A stretch of DNA of 64,000 nucleotides, from assembly GCF_000160135.1 (NCBI RefSeq), contig NZ_GG729933.1, positions 254,816-318,815 on the forward strand, read 5' to 3'. Source of the DNA: Oribacterium sp. oral taxon 078 str. F0262 (GTDB taxonomy: Bacteria > Bacillota > Clostridia > Lachnospirales > Lachnospiraceae). Each line of letters starts with the position of its first letter. Within the stretch, counting starts at the first letter, position 1. Below, piece after piece: positions 30,146 through 64,000 of this stretch. A program made the position numbers and the translations under genes. The notes below the pieces were generated by a model. That model was not told where the DNA came from and ran no database searches. It worked only from the letters and a program-made list of their open reading frames with translations.

Positions 30146-31795
30146 ATGCGAAGAAATCAAAGAGCGCTCTGCCTCCTTTCCCTGGGGCTTTGCTTGAGCG
30201 CGGCATTTCCCGGAAGAGGCTTTGCGGACGGTCCTTCGCCTTCCGGCGGGCCGGGGGTTTTGATGGGACCGACGCAGGGGAGTGAGAATGCGGCAATCCC
30301 CGCAGAGGGCGGCGCGGCATCGGATCAGAGCAGCGCGTCACCGCCTCAGAGCGGAGCATCCGTTCAGAGCAGTGCTTCTCCGCCTCAGGATGGCGCATCC
30401 GTTCAGAGCAGTGTGTCGCCTCCCCAGAGCCAGGGCGCGGCATCGGATCAGAGCGGCGCGATTTCCGCTCAGGGCACCCCCGATGCGGCGGCTCCTTCTG
30501 CCGAGGGCGTCCCCTCCGGGACGAACGGGGGCGGGAGCACGAAGTCGGATGCGGATGCCTTTTCGAACCCGTGGCTTGGCTACAGCAATGAGGACGGTTC
30601 GGATCTCATCTATCTGGAGAAGGGCACAGAGGTTTCGAAGTTTCAAAATGACAATGGCGCGATCGACTGGGAGGCGGCAAAGGCGGACGGTCTGGACTTC
30701 GTCATTGTCCGTCTGGCCTACGGCCTGAAGGAGGACCCCTATTTCGATCAGAACGTGAAGGGGGCTCAGGCAGCCGGTCTGAAGGTCGGTGCCTATCTCT
30801 GCTCCACGGCGAAAAATATGGACGAAGCGGTGGCTGAGGCGAATCTCACGATCCGGAAGATTAAAAAGTATAAGCTGCAGTATCCGGTCGCCTATGACGC
30901 GGAGGTCAATGATATGCTCTCCGAGGGGGCGACGCCGGAGATCCTCACCGCCATGGCGAACAAGTACTGCGCGATGGTGAAGGCAGCGGGCTATACGCCC
31001 ATCGTCTATGCGAACCGGACCTGGCTCACGGAGTATATGAATATCGCGGATATCCCCTATGATATCTGGTTTGCGGCTTATCCGCAGGACAGGGTCTACC
31101 GCCCGGTGAAGGGATCGAATACAACGATCTGGCAGTCCGGAGAGGCGGGGACGGTCAAGGGCATCAAGGGAAATGTCACGACGGAGTTTTCCTGGAAGGC
31201 CTACGGAGGGGGCAGTCCCTCGAGAAAGAACGCGGGGAGCGGCGGCTCCGCGAAGAAGGGGAGCCTTCCGGCCACGGGGAGCAACAGCGGATCGGGCAAG
31301 GTCTCCGGGAATTCCGGGGGAGGAAGCGCCGCCAACATGAATAATAAGGCGGACGGCAATGGAGTCTCCGACGGCTGGACGCAGAAAAACGGCAAGTGGT
31401 ATTATTATGAGAAGCGAAAAAAGGTGAGCGGCTGGAAGCAGGTCTCGAAGCTTTGGTACTATATGGACGGGGACGGCGTGATGCAGACGGGCTGGGTCAG
31501 AGACGGTGGAAACTGGTATTTTCTGAAGCCAAACGGCGTGATGGCGACGAACTGGGCCAATGTCGGGGGCAGGTGGTTTTACCTTGGCTCCGACGGGCGG
31601 ATGGTGAGCGGCTGGACCAAGCTCGATAAGAAGTGGTACTATCTGGGGGATGACGGCGCGATGGCGACCGGCTGGAAGACGATATCCGGAAACTGGTACT
31701 ACCTGGGGGATGACGGCGTGATGGCCGCAGACGGCACGAAAAAGATCGACGGCGCAAATTACCGCTTTGATAAGTCCGGTGTCTGGCTCGCCTGA
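30146..31795 (+). CDS. Secreted GH25 lysozyme with GW-type cell-wall-binding repeats
   Basis: A 549-residue exported protein. Signal peptide at residues 1-27; then a low-complexity linker with SASPPQ / GASVQSS repeats up to about residue 135; a GH25 muramidase domain about 160-350 (GTEVSKFQNDNGAIDW, YDAEVND, IVYANRTWLTEY, TIWQSGEAG); a Gly/Ser linker; and about seven C-terminal wall-binding repeats of the WYYL-DG-M-TGW kind. The second acidic pair (DAE) is kept, but the usual GxDVS Asp is Glu here. It likely trims or anchors in the wall. A GAGAGGAT ribosome site precedes ATG 30146. Confidence 0.88.
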   Translation: MRRNQRALCLLSLGLCLSAAFPGRGFADGPSPSGGPGVLMGPTQGSENAAIPAEGGAASDQSSASPPQSGASVQSSASPPQDGASVQSSVSPPQSQGAASDQSGAISAQGTPDAAAPSAEGVPSGTNGGGSTKSDADAFSNPWLGYSNEDGSDLIYLEKGTEVSKFQNDNGAIDWEAAKADGLDFVIVRLAYGLKEDPYFDQNVKGAQAAGLKVGAYLCSTAKNMDEAVAEANLTIRKIKKYKLQYPVAYDAEVNDMLSEGATPEILTAMANKYCAMVKAAGYTPIVYANRTWLTEYMNIADIPYDIWFAAYPQDRVYRPVKGSNTTIWQSGEAGTVKGIKGNVTTEFSWKAYGGGSPSRKNAGSGGSAKKGSLPATGSNSGSGKVSGNSGGGSAANMNNKADGNGVSDGWTQKNGKWYYYEKRKKVSGWKQVSKLWYYMDGDGVMQTGWVRDGGNWYFLKPNGVMATNWANVGGRWFYLGSDGRMVSGWTKLDKKWYYLGDDGAMATGWKTISGNWYYLGDDGVMAADGTKKIDGANYRFDKSGVWLA

Positions 31796-42645: not shown

Positions 42646-43910
42646 AAGAGAAAGACTTCATCAGGGAGAAAATCGTGGGTCGGAGAGCGGGGCGGGGAAA
42701 GCGCCTTCTCCGCCTTCTCATGCTCCTTTGCTCGGCCCTTCTGTTCGGCTTTGTCGCGGCCCTGGCCTTTGCGCTCTCGGAGCCCCGCCTCGCAAAGCTC
42801 TTTCGAACGGAGACTCCGGAGTCCGTAGAGCTGCAGTCGGAGGAGTCGAGTGAGGAGAGCAGGGAGGAGTCGAGCGAGGAGAGCAGGGAGGAGACGGAAT
42901 CGGAAGCTCTGGAGAAGAGGATACGCACGGAGATCGAAAGCTATGATTTCCCGGTCTCCGCCTATGAGAGGATGATTTCCAACCTGAAAAAGGTCTCCTC
43001 GGATGCCGAGAAATCCCTGGCAGAGGTCCGAAGGAGGGAGAGCGGGACGGATTTCCTCGGAGAGAGCATGGATTCGGAGAACAGCTGGGCCGGCATCATC
43101 CTCGCAAAGACCGGGGATGAGCTCCTGGTCCTCTGCCCGATCGATGCGGTGCGGGAAGGAGGAAATCTGAGCATCTCCGTGCTCCGGGAGGAGGGGCACG
43201 AGGCCTCCGTAAAGGCGAGGGACAGGACAGATCGTCTCGCGATCCTCTCTGTTCCGATCGCTTCTCTGAGCGAAAAGGAACGGGAGGAGACCAAGGCGAT
43301 CCCCCTCGGAAACTCCAGGCTCCTGCAAAGGGGGGACACTCTCCTCGCCATCGGAGCGCCCTCCGGCTTCCTCTATTCCTCCGCCAGGGGCCTGGTCTCC
43401 TACCTCTCCTACGACTATCCCTCGACAGACAGGACGGTGGAGAACATTCAGCTCAATCTGGAACAGGAGGAGAAGCTCGGGACCTATCTCCTAAACAGCT
43501 CCGGAGAGCTCGTGGGGATCCTCTTCCCGGAGGGAGAGGGAGGAGGCGGCTATCATGAGATCCTCGGAATCTCGGATCTTGTGGGAAGCCTGGAGCGTCT
43601 CAGCAACGGAGAGCAGCTCCCCTACCTCGGACTGAAGCTCCAGAAGGTGACGCCGGAGATGGAGCAAAGGGGGATCCCGAAGGGGATTTATATCAGAAGC
43701 TGCGAGGAGGGCTCCCCCGCCTTCCTCGCCGGGATACAGTCGGGCGATATTCTCTCGAAGCTGAATGGGGGAGGGATCGAATCCCCGCAGGACCTCCAGA
43801 AGATGATGAAGGAGCTTCACCCGGGAGAGAATGCGGAGCTCACCGTACTCCGCCAGAAGGGGCAGGGCTACCGCGAGATTTCCTTTCAGCTCTCTCTCGG
43901 GGAGCGCTGA
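42642..43910 (+). CDS. HtrA-like membrane-anchored protein with degenerate protease domain and PDZ
   Basis: A 422-residue protein with one N-terminal transmembrane helix (about 23-46), a Glu/Ser-rich linker with EESSEESREESSEESREE-type repeats, a trypsin-like domain (about 120-310) and a PDZ domain (about 325-420: LPYLGLKLQKVTPEMEQRG, GSPAFLAGIQSGDILSKLNG). The usual catalytic His block and GNSGGP Ser block are not there: where they are expected I see LLVLCPIDAV and YLLNSSGELVGI; the Asp-like TDRLAILSV remains. It is therefore probably inactive as a protease and may bind unfolded wall or envelope proteins. The ATG overlaps the kinase gene stop. Confidence 0.82.
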   Translation: MKEKDFIREKIVGRRAGRGKRLLRLLMLLCSALLFGFVAALAFALSEPRLAKLFRTETPESVELQSEESSEESREESSEESREETESEALEKRIRTEIESYDFPVSAYERMISNLKKVSSDAEKSLAEVRRRESGTDFLGESMDSENSWAGIILAKTGDELLVLCPIDAVREGGNLSISVLREEGHEASVKARDRTDRLAILSVPIASLSEKEREETKAIPLGNSRLLQRGDTLLAIGAPSGFLYSSARGLVSYLSYDYPSTDRTVENIQLNLEQEEKLGTYLLNSSGELVGILFPEGEGGGGYHEILGISDLVGSLERLSNGEQLPYLGLKLQKVTPEMEQRGIPKGIYIRSCEEGSPAFLAGIQSGDILSKLNGGGIESPQDLQKMMKELHPGENAELTVLRQKGQGYREISFQLSLGER

Positions 43911-61967: not shown

Positions 61968-62726
61968 ATGGAGAAAAGAGAAGAGAGGCGAAAGCTCAGT
62001 CTTGTGAGCGGTGCGAGCTCCGGGATCGGGAGAGCGATCGCGGTCCGCGAGGCGAGGGCGGGGAGAAATCTGCTGATAAACTATGCGGGAAATGAGGAGG
62101 GGGCGAAGGAGACGGAGCGCCTGATCCATGAGGCCGCGCCGGAGGCAGAGGTCCTGCTCTTTCGGGCGGATGTCTCGGAGGAAGAGGCGGTCAGGGAGAT
62201 GGTCGATGCGGCGGTCGAACGCTTCGGGGCGATCGATGTCCTCGTAAACAATGCCGGAATCACAAGAGATAATCTCCTTCTTCGGATGAGCGCAGAGGAC
62301 TTCGACAGCGTCCTTCGCATCAATCTCCGGGGCGTCTTCCTCCTCTCTAAATATGCCGGGAAATACATGCTGAAGAAAAGAAGCGGCCGGATCATAAATA
62401 TCTCCAGTGTCGTCGGCCTCCATGGAAATATCGGACAGGTCAACTATGCCGCGTCCAAGGCGGGGATCATCGGCATCACGAAGACCCTGGCGAGGGAATA
62501 CGCCGGGAGAAATATCACAGTCAACGCCGTGGCCCCCGGCTTTATTGAAACCCGCATGACCGAGACACTGCCGGAAAAGATCAAAGAAAGCATGCTCTCG
62601 GAAATCCCCCTCGGACGCTTCGGAAAACCGGAAGACATCGCAAACGCCGTCAGCTTCCTCGCCTCCGACGAAAGCTCCTACATCACCGGCCAGGTACTCC
62701 TGATCGACGGTGGAATGAGAGCGTAG
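61968..62726 (+). CDS. fabG: 3-oxoacyl-ACP reductase
   Basis: A 252-residue short-chain dehydrogenase reducing 3-oxoacyl-ACP with NADPH. SGASSGIGRAIAVREARAG is the cofactor glycine motif, NNAGITRDNLLLRM the NNAG motif, and ISSVVGLHGNIGQVNYAASK carries Ser, Tyr and Lys of the catalytic set; VAPGFIETRMTETLPEKI and ITGQVLLIDGGM complete the family pattern. The 176-bp repeats begin 14 bases after its stop. Confidence 0.96.
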   Translation: MEKREERRKLSLVSGASSGIGRAIAVREARAGRNLLINYAGNEEGAKETERLIHEAAPEAEVLLFRADVSEEEAVREMVDAAVERFGAIDVLVNNAGITRDNLLLRMSAEDFDSVLRINLRGVFLLSKYAGKYMLKKRSGRIINISSVVGLHGNIGQVNYAASKAGIIGITKTLAREYAGRNITVNAVAPGFIETRMTETLPEKIKESMLSEIPLGRFGKPEDIANAVSFLASDESSYITGQVLLIDGGMRA

Positions 62727-62740
62727 GCGTTTTTCTTTCA

Positions 62741-63512
62741 GAAAAACGCCGGAGCGAATTGGCACAGTGCTAAGGACAGAAAAAGAGCCAAGAGAAAGAG
62801 CAGGTCCGACAAAGCTGAATGTCCATAGAGAAATGCACTGTGTCCCGCGAAGCGGGATCCTGTGAGGTCTACAGGACCGAACAGGACCCGGGGAGAAGGA
62901 GCGTTCCGCCTCGAAGGAAAAACGCCGGAGCGAATTGGCACAGTGCTAAGGACAGAAAAAGAGCCAAGAGAAAGAGCAGGTCCGACAAAGCTGAATGTCC
63001 ATAGAGAAATGCACTGTGTCCCGCGAAGCGGGATCCTGTGAGGTCTACAGGACCGAACAGGACCCGGGGAGAAGGAGCGTTCCGCCTCGAAGGAAAAACG
63101 CCGGAGCGAATTGGCACAGTGCTAAGGACAGAAAAAGAGCCAAGAGAAAGAGCAGGTCCGACAAAGCTGAATGTCCATAGAGAAATGCACTGTGTCCCGC
63201 GAAGCGGGATCCTGTGAGGTCTACAGGACCGAACAGGACCCGGGGAGAAGGAGCGTTCCGCCTCGAAGGAAAAACGCCGGAGCGAATTGGCACAGTGCTA
63301 AGGACAGAAAAAGAGCCAAGAGAAAGAGCGGGTCCGACAGAATCGGAAAGCCATAGGGCGATGCACTGTGTCCCGCGAAGCGGGATCCTGTGAGGCCTAC
63401 AGGACCGAACAGGACCCGGAGGGAAGGACAGTGATGCTCCGAAGGAAAAACGCCGGAGCGAGTTGGCACAGTGCTAAGGACAGAAAAAGAGCCAAGAGAA
63501 AGAGCAGGTCCG
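62741..63512. repeat. 176-bp tandem repeat, four full units and one partial
   Basis: The block beginning GAAAAACGCCGGAGCG starts at 62741, 62917, 63093, 63269 and 63445, exactly 176 bp apart; the last copy stops after GCAGGTCCG at about 63512. Copies 1-3 read as near-identical, copy 4 has clustered substitutions, and length is constant. Each unit holds CACAGTGC, which can pair with its distal GCACTGTG; hairpin TCCCGC-GAA-GCGGGA; and TCCTGT...ACAGGA, whose loop alone changed in copy 4 (GAGGTCT to GAGGCCT). It fills the fabG-fabF gap and would be in the operon transcript. Short frames across it repeat in phase shifts (176 is not a multiple of three) and do not look like genes. Confidence 0.95.
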
Positions 63513-63570
63513 TTTTTAAAGGCTCCCGCCGCGGGCAGGAACTACAGGAAGAAGCAGGAAGGAGAAAAAG

Positions 63571-64000
63571 ATGGAAAAAAGAAGGGTGGTCATCACCGGG
63601 CTTGGCACAGTGAATCCGACGGGAAATACGGTGAAGGAGAGCTGGGATGCGATCCGGGATGGAAAATGCGGGATCGCCCCCATCAGCTGCTTTGATACGG
63701 AAGGCTTTTCGGTAAAGCTTGCGGCGGAGGTCAAGGATTTCCATCCGGAGGAGATCCTGGACAAGCGCGAATTAAAGCATATGGCGCGCTTTACCCAGTT
63801 CGCGCTGATCGCCGCTGAGCAGGCGATGCAGGAGAGCGGACTGCGCGCTGCCATCGATCCGACCCGCATCGGGGCGATCGTCTCCTCCGGTATCGGAGGA
63901 CTCAAAACCATCGAGGAGGAGCACAGCAAGGGAGAAAAGCGGGGCTTTGAAAGGGTAAATCCCTTCTTCATCCCGATGGCCATCTCCAATATGGCGGCGG
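63571..64000 (+). CDS. fabF: Beta-ketoacyl-ACP synthase II, cut by window end
   Basis: The first 143 residues of a condensing enzyme that extends acyl-ACP. RRVVITGLGTVNPTGNTVKE is the family N-terminus, followed by GIAPISCFDTEGF, and GAIVSSGIGGLKTIEEEH before the dimer-interface region NPFFIPMAISNMAA. The catalytic Cys and His residues lie beyond the window. AAGGAG at 63559-63564 gives the start at 63571. The repeat block directly upstream separates it from fabG. Confidence 0.93.
   Translation, partial: MEKRRVVITGLGTVNPTGNTVKESWDAIRDGKCGIAPISCFDTEGFSVKLAAEVKDFHPEEILDKRELKHMARFTQFALIAAEQAMQESGLRAAIDPTRIGAIVSSGIGGLKTIEEEHSKGEKRGFERVNPFFIPMAISNMAA

Follow-up and report, generated by a model that had tools for sequence, protein, structure and literature searches.

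Among the short interspersed repeats of bacteria, the BOX elements of pneumococcus are modular, fold stably and contain internal modules in tandem; the element described here resembles them in these three respects by description only. RU-1, another such repeat, is identical to ERIC. The closest described systems are the GTAG REPs and their clusters, BIMEs (Di Nocera et al. 2013, PMC3733652). In the sections of that survey drawn upon here, REPs are found mainly in gamma- and alpha-Proteobacteria, and the GTAG REPs are tied to RAYT transposases, lie within 20 bp of ORF 3' ends and often supply TAG stops. The words Firmicutes, Clostridi- and Lachnospir- are absent from its main text, and these together with Oribacterium are absent from the main text of PMC12306157.

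The repeat in the fabG-fabF gap of Oribacterium sp. oral taxon 078 str. F0262 shares several traits with GTAG REPs and BIMEs as portrayed in those sections (PMC3733652): it is palindromic and interspersed, its tag often supplies the stop codon, it often lies less than 20 bp behind ORFs, and clusters are reiterated together with flanking DNA. At the fab site a tag of the GTAG type stands at the foot of a hairpin, its last G being paired in the R1 alignment. Unlike the REPs of the same sections, each a single palindrome of 20-40 bp, the element comprises four hairpins over ~100 nt in head-to-tail arrangement, and its tag often reads GGAG, GTGA or otherwise. High copy number and interspersion are contributed by a sister subfamily (82 matches), the fab unit itself occupying one place; the element is no small palindrome of 20-40 bp; and a position next to ORF 3' ends, with the tag giving the stop, is found at 37/64 sites outside the own genome and at 9/34 within it (see below). 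RAYT-mobilised REPs and REPINs, in the excerpted text of PMC3116915 and PMC2817692, are likewise high-copy short palindromic repeats. They are tied to a RAYT of the Y1_Tnp type, whereas the own genome has 0 matches to RAYT/Y1_Tnp (PF01797); it thus lacks the established mover of REPs, which was ruled out as the agent of mobility there. Y1_Tnp matches, which may or may not be RAYTs flanked by the element, occur in 9/17 genus genomes. One relative (G004) has 30 of them, many partial and at contig ends, as would be the case if a multi-copy IS200-like element had fragmented the assembly. Enterobacterial RU repeats (103-168 bp; parts of PMC2759123) are also intergenic mobile repeats of similar length, from another phylum and likened by description, not by sequence. 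The family looks as if it worked in the manner of GTAG REPs, yet it is not filed as a REP because it is larger, has four hairpins, is arranged head-to-tail and resides in a genome without a RAYT match.

The repeat array between fabG and fabF

The window (the whole 64,000-nucleotide stretch of DNA analysed) holds a fatty-acid cluster in the order accD-accA-fabH-fabK-fabD-fabG-fabF, in which fabH, fabK, fabD and the cut fabF were named by best NCBIfam match, partly just under model cut-offs. The features of the array and its flanks are as follows.

61968..62726, + strand: fabG (3-oxoacyl-ACP reductase), upstream cistron; ORF, NCBIfam TIGR01830 above cut-off
62723..62726, + strand: GTAG at the 5' foot of P1, containing the fabG stop; from the sequence
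62726..62750, + strand: hairpin P1 (10 bp, loop TTTCA); R1 alignment, covariation
62741..62916, + strand: repeat copy 1 (176 bp); Tandem Repeats Finder and copy comparison
62751..62762, + strand: linker GGAGCGAATTGG, a conserved family motif; alignments
62762..62842, + strand: hairpin P2 (GCACAGTGC / GCACTGTG), whose loop is unusually long; R1 alignment
62843..62857, + strand: hairpin P3, TCCCGC-GAA-GCGGGA; R1 alignment
62859..62885, + strand: hairpin P4, CCTGT-GA-GGTC..GACC-GA-ACAGG, with tandem G.A; R1 alignment
62917..63092, + strand: repeat copy 2, equal to copy 1 (0/176 differences)
63093..63268, + strand: repeat copy 3, equal to copy 1 (0/176 differences)
63269..63444, + strand: repeat copy 4 (22/176 positions differ from copy 1)
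63445..63512, + strand: partial fifth copy of 68 bp (1/68 positions differs from copy 1)
63571..64000, + strand: fabF, downstream cistron, cut by the window end; ORF, NCBIfam (truncated FabF scores under the whole-protein cut-off)

An earlier note on this DNA had claimed a 176-bp period between the two genes, with three near-identical copies and a fourth that diverged except in its hairpins. The period was recovered at 62741-63512 (4.4 copies, score 1402, Tandem Repeats Finder), and copies 1-3 are in fact identical, which supports the recent tandem expansion that the note had proposed. Its description of copy 4 stands in part: changes fall on 1/80 hairpin/linker positions vs 21/96 others (Fisher p=1.4e-5), albeit copy 4 is likewise unchanged at unit positions 31-61, which belong to no hairpin. 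The avoidance of the hairpins, combined with covariation in relatives (see below), supports the proposed selection on structure. The genome-wide search for the unit gave a divided answer: the exact 176-bp unit lies at one place only in the 2.68-Mb assembly, three other matches measuring only 16-21 nt (E=0.41), and the architecture is dispersed in the own genome and in relatives. Two other tandem repeats were reported in the window by Tandem Repeats Finder, at 30317-30430 and 42839-42893 (39-bp and 24-bp units). The fabG stop TAG (62724-62726) sits within the 5' GTAG of the element, and fabG of seven other carriers likewise ends in GCG-TAG.

Architecture and covariation of the element

Family members share the build P1, linker (G)GAGCGAnnTGGC, P2, P3 with a C-GAA-G loop, and P4 with tandem G.A. 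In relatives a tag comes first and ACC last, enclosing P1 (10 bp, with ATCA as its usual loop), the linker, P2, P3 and P4. One element spans ~96-120 nt, with four hairpins over 96 model positions and 25 nt for P1 alone. The last G of the GTAG is the first base of P1 and is paired in the R1 alignment. At the array, the tandem unit begins at the 3' arm of P1, and copy 1 is the only one preceded by a complete P1. The 5' tags (GAGCGTAG, GAGTGGAG, GAGTGA and similar) overlap or directly follow the upstream stop codon; GTAG is also found in the fab copies of relatives, and GGAG, GTGA and others at further sites. In relatives P4 measures ~11 bp and has tandem G.A or Watson-Crick pairs in the same place. 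P4 was also considered as hammerhead-like, an idea abandoned because some copies have Watson-Crick pairs where others have the tandem G.A. Folding of one unit gave -58.1 kcal/mol for the sense strand (z -3.5, 0/200 shuffles as low) and -56.8 kcal/mol for the antisense strand (z -2.8, 2/200 shuffles as low).

The pairing was assessed in alignment A2, a sequence alignment, not structure-fitted, of 14 copies from other species with no window sequence. It omits copies with large inserts as well as those of G001, G002, G005, G006, G007 and the own genome. With a structure chosen from the A2 copies themselves, 95.3% of cells are paired and both partners changed in 16/32 pairs (mean of shuffles 8.1); covariation amounts to 0.292 vs 0.095 shuffled and <=0.086 with partners slid. 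In the structure-fitted alignment A4 (50 copies), stem changes are almost exclusively double changes, with 423 double-change cells vs 109 shuffled; antisense rows remain in A3 and A4, e.g. L107 1478-1556 in A4.

Whether pairing matters in RNA or in DNA was approached through the mismatch types. Pair counts were taken from alignment A5 (94 rows; 5/101 antisense or overlapping rows removed, identical rows counted once). The G.U share is 1.1-3.1% of cells per helix vs 5.8% for 14 tRNAs encoded at these loci. Over all helices G.U outnumbers A.C (64 vs 31 cells; p=9e-4, indicative only as the rows are related), and in P1 alone A.C exceeds G.U (13 vs 10 cells). The G.U excess and the strand bias described below favour base pairing within sense RNA, while the low G.U total and the P1 counts would fit palindromes kept perfect at the DNA level. 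From these sequence patterns, a function of the element at the RNA level appears to be the likelier case.

Spread of the family and anchoring to stop codons

Membership of the window copies in this family was evaluated with R1, a covariance model built from A2. Of the window copies, the model recognised the first with E=5.5e-8 and the next three with 1.5e-3, 1.5e-3 and 0.018 (E-values are rough); the best match elsewhere in the window had E=1.3. As R1 was built without window sequence, its match in the window is independent evidence of family membership. Copies 2-4 score lower probably because the complete P1 is present in copy 1 only. Matches at E<=1e-4 were obtained in 15/17 genus genomes, Oribacterium sp. 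UBA6992 among them (G003, whose FabD locus is present in that record without a single mismatch); matches in G008 and G012 are weak, E 0.008-0.09, and taken as unproven. Because no more than 150 candidates were scored in each genome, and the window copies themselves escaped this search, its copy numbers are minimum values. When the G004 fab element served as BLAST query, more copies appeared in many genus members, some in tandem and some with neighbours ~4 kb apart. Six places in G006 (L235, L236) have equal R1 score and length (107 bp), which suggests recent spread of a variant.

The own genome contains a 107-bp sister subfamily with 82 BLAST matches, many of them in tandem. Its loci (L240-L269, L341-L350) lie outside the window and have tandem periods of ~110-134 bp; several copies are enclosed by longer inverted flanks of the CTGCCGC..GCGGCAG type. 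By eye, such flanks surround dispersed own-genome copies and are not found at the fab site. Another subfamily forms four tandem ~167-bp copies (L220:1575-2171; C12:483574-484170, minus) immediately after the stop codon of a gene that encodes a CoA-enzyme-activase domain.

Outside the genus, an R2 search of 397 genomes of the taxonomic family (10 candidates scored per genome, so that counts are lower bounds) returned at least three copies in G333, one of them behind leuS, and at least one in G194, behind a phosphoketolase gene; the element thus also occurs in two further genera. The pattern ATCAGN{9,16}CGATATGGC matches in 107/397 of these genomes, with far fewer matches for a backward control. 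Three of its places in G194 resemble the element by eye: the one on contig C21 is the R2 match already counted for G194, and a tandem pair on C27, found via this pattern, gave R2 E=1.6e-9 and 2.1e-5. A linker-like pattern match in G065 has no R2 match. The exact motif CCGGAGCGANNTGGC occurs in 25/397 genomes, the own genome included; none of the 24 outside places inspected by eye, with 25 listed, has the P1-linker-P2-P3 build.

Rfam 15 gave no match at E<=10 in the window region and none at E<=2 in eight relatives' loci; 16 further loci yielded four matches, all under the gathering score. One of these, freshwater-2 at L107 1309-1400 minus (30 bits vs gathering 49.9), overlaps an element. No report of the repeat in Oribacterium or Lachnospiraceae was found in the open-access literature searched, and it apparently represents an undescribed REP-like family. 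The earlier note had considered that the unit might belong to a repeat family already known and unconnected with the operon. A repeat family it is, albeit in none of the sources searched. As to the link, the family is dispersed, but such an element lies in the fabG-fabF gap of seven other species.

The fab site was compared among genus members. FabD was matched in 15/17 genus genomes, and the stretch behind fabG was readable in 14. The gap holds the element in 8/14: the window genome (G000), G004, G010, G011, G013, G014, G015 and G016. Copy number is 4.4 in G000, 2 (tandem) in G011 and 1 in G004, G010, G013 and G015; the stretches of G014 and G016 end at a contig edge within the gap, so that their copies are cut, and G016 shows a typical P1 and linker only (R1 E=0.0019). 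No R2 match at E<=0.001 was found in the gap of G002, G003, G005, G007, G008 and G012. The gap of G012 (L033), also without R2 match, is of low complexity with GAGCGA and TTACGATATAG motifs and could be a decayed element. In a FabD+FabG tree the carriers fall in two places. One is a well supported clade of seven carriers with the non-carrier G007 as its sister; the other is G000, next to G008 and G012, both non-carriers (support 91/90). At least two changes are forced by the starred branches of this tree, thus the site was filled twice, or once and then lost repeatedly.

The position of the element relative to genes was scored at 64 sites outside the own genome. These are the sites with flanks; contig-end, weaker-E and some same-score G006 matches were left out, carriers G014 and G016 are represented only by copies other than those at fab, and three sites are separate places on locus L326. 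Gene calls came from a simple codon-usage caller, not a published gene finder, and sites without a called upstream gene were counted as no contact. A sense stop lies within -45..+40 nt of P1 at 37/64 sites, and the stop of an antisense gene takes the mirror position at 2/64. Collapsed to distinct upstream genes, the ratio is 19 vs 2 (sign test 19/21, p=2e-4). Own-genome sites show this preference less strongly, with a sense stop at 9/34 vs 2 mirror cases, and their orientation is mixed. Of 16 individually checked flanking genes, 13 stop -1 to +7 nt from P1 (7, 4, 5, 4, -28, 4, -5, 4, 4, 4, 0, 0, 0, 5, 13 and -1 nt). The tag itself provides the stop in fabG (GGA-GCG-TAG), behind an ORF ending in PREGWDE and an OppC-type gene (GAG-TGA), and behind pheS (T-GA-GCGG).

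Hosts in front of the element comprise argS, pheS, leuS, atpB, argH, fliM, the phosphoketolase gene and others. The argS-associated copy precedes a phosphodiesterase gene, and a copy behind a TPM-domain gene precedes a citrate lyase ligase gene. The PREGWDE ORF is small, follows an AraC-family gene and has a weak HicB-like Pfam match under cut-off; its copy precedes a pyrK-type gene. The remaining 27/64 outside sites lack such contact with a stop codon, and a lacI-type promoter region harbours some of the copies. At L102, L314 and L316, copies were observed 111 bp from a divergent gene (at L102 before a lacI-family gene), hence not every copy is behind a stop codon. At three own-genome loci (L221, L225, L227) the host ORF is still open when it enters P1, which adds C-terminal letters of the ..QADSER type.

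Readings of the array

On balance, the array is probably a tandemly amplified member of a REP-like interspersed family of structured repeats, and a transcribed intercistronic element. In the fab operon the tag contains the fabG stop and the hairpins occupy the gap, where unequal recombination or replication slippage may have led to 4.4 copies. The element is most likely transcribed with the operon and would then behave like REP/BIME sequences: once folded in the cell, a stable structure just behind the stop codon could guard the upstream mRNA from 3' decay and/or uncouple fabF translation and transcript level from the preceding genes. An influence of the array on fabG and fabF is plausible in these terms. 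The sequences establish the array, the family, its structure, its anchoring to stop codons and its bias in orientation; transcription, folding in the cell, the action on mRNA and the modes of amplification and spread are inferred. Against the REP-like reading stand the lack of a RAYT in the own genome, the larger size and head-to-tail arrangement, the weaker sense-stop preference in the own genome, the outside sites that lack stop-codon contact, and the scarcity of G.U pairs, with A.C ahead in P1, which would suit maintenance of the palindromes as DNA.

A real though lesser possibility is a selfish or neutral DNA repeat, whose palindromes are kept by mobility or template-switch repair, whose insertion at gene ends is tolerated and whose array does nothing for the operon. 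The sister subfamily with its 82 own-genome matches, several nested in longer inverted flanks, is consistent with this reading, as are the mixed orientation of own-genome sites, the low G.U content, with A.C above G.U in P1, and the variable copy number at the fab site (4.4, 2 and 1 among carriers). Against it stand the 37:2 sense bias outside the own genome, the occupation of the fabG-fabF gap in two lineages, and the G.U excess over A.C across all helices (64 > 31; p=9e-4, rows related), as pairing in sense RNA predicts.

A new class of stop-codon-anchored mRNA element appears rather unlikely. The terminating ribosome would read the tag, and the hairpins would affect termination, recycling or 3'-end protection; such an element would be used at many unrelated operon joints, spread without RAYT and have its dose set by tandem copy number. 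If true, fabG|fabF, pheS|pheT, atpB|atpE, argH|argG and the position behind argS would be joints of this kind, and its users the Oribacterium-type genus and some related genera.

An operon-specific cis-regulator of fatty-acid synthesis, i.e. a riboswitch or attenuator tuning fabF, is very unlikely; the earlier note had suggested that the repeat could tune fabF expression. The element is structured, lies within the fab operon and occupies the gap in 8/14 readable genus genomes, but it is missing from the other 6/14, and the identical architecture stands behind unrelated genes (argS, pheS, leuS, atpB, argH, fliM), not restricted to one pathway. Neither an Rfam match at the window copies nor a + strand terminator-like site near the array was found. 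An intrinsic terminator is not supported either, a consensus scan of 62500-63700 having returned no + strand hairpin-U-run site.

That the copy number is an artefact of assembly is highly improbable: three identical 176-bp copies could be miscounted from short reads, but copies 4 and 5 differ from them, the 824-kb contig is continuous through the array, and tandem copies of the element are present in other species too. Least credible is an array of tandem small RNAs, another suggestion of the note, for which the units are suitably repeated and structured, but consensus scans of 62500-63700 detected neither promoter-like sites (both strands) nor terminator-like sites (+ strand), and Rfam gave no match.

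The preferred reading, a REP-like structured repeat amplified between two cistrons, would mean that a larger, strongly covarying and stop-codon-anchored version of REPs is common in a Lachnospiraceae genus. The natural series of 1, 2 and 4.4 copies at one joint makes the effect of such repeats on polycistronic mRNA directly testable. Moreover, this REP-like version is present in a genome without a RAYT-family match.
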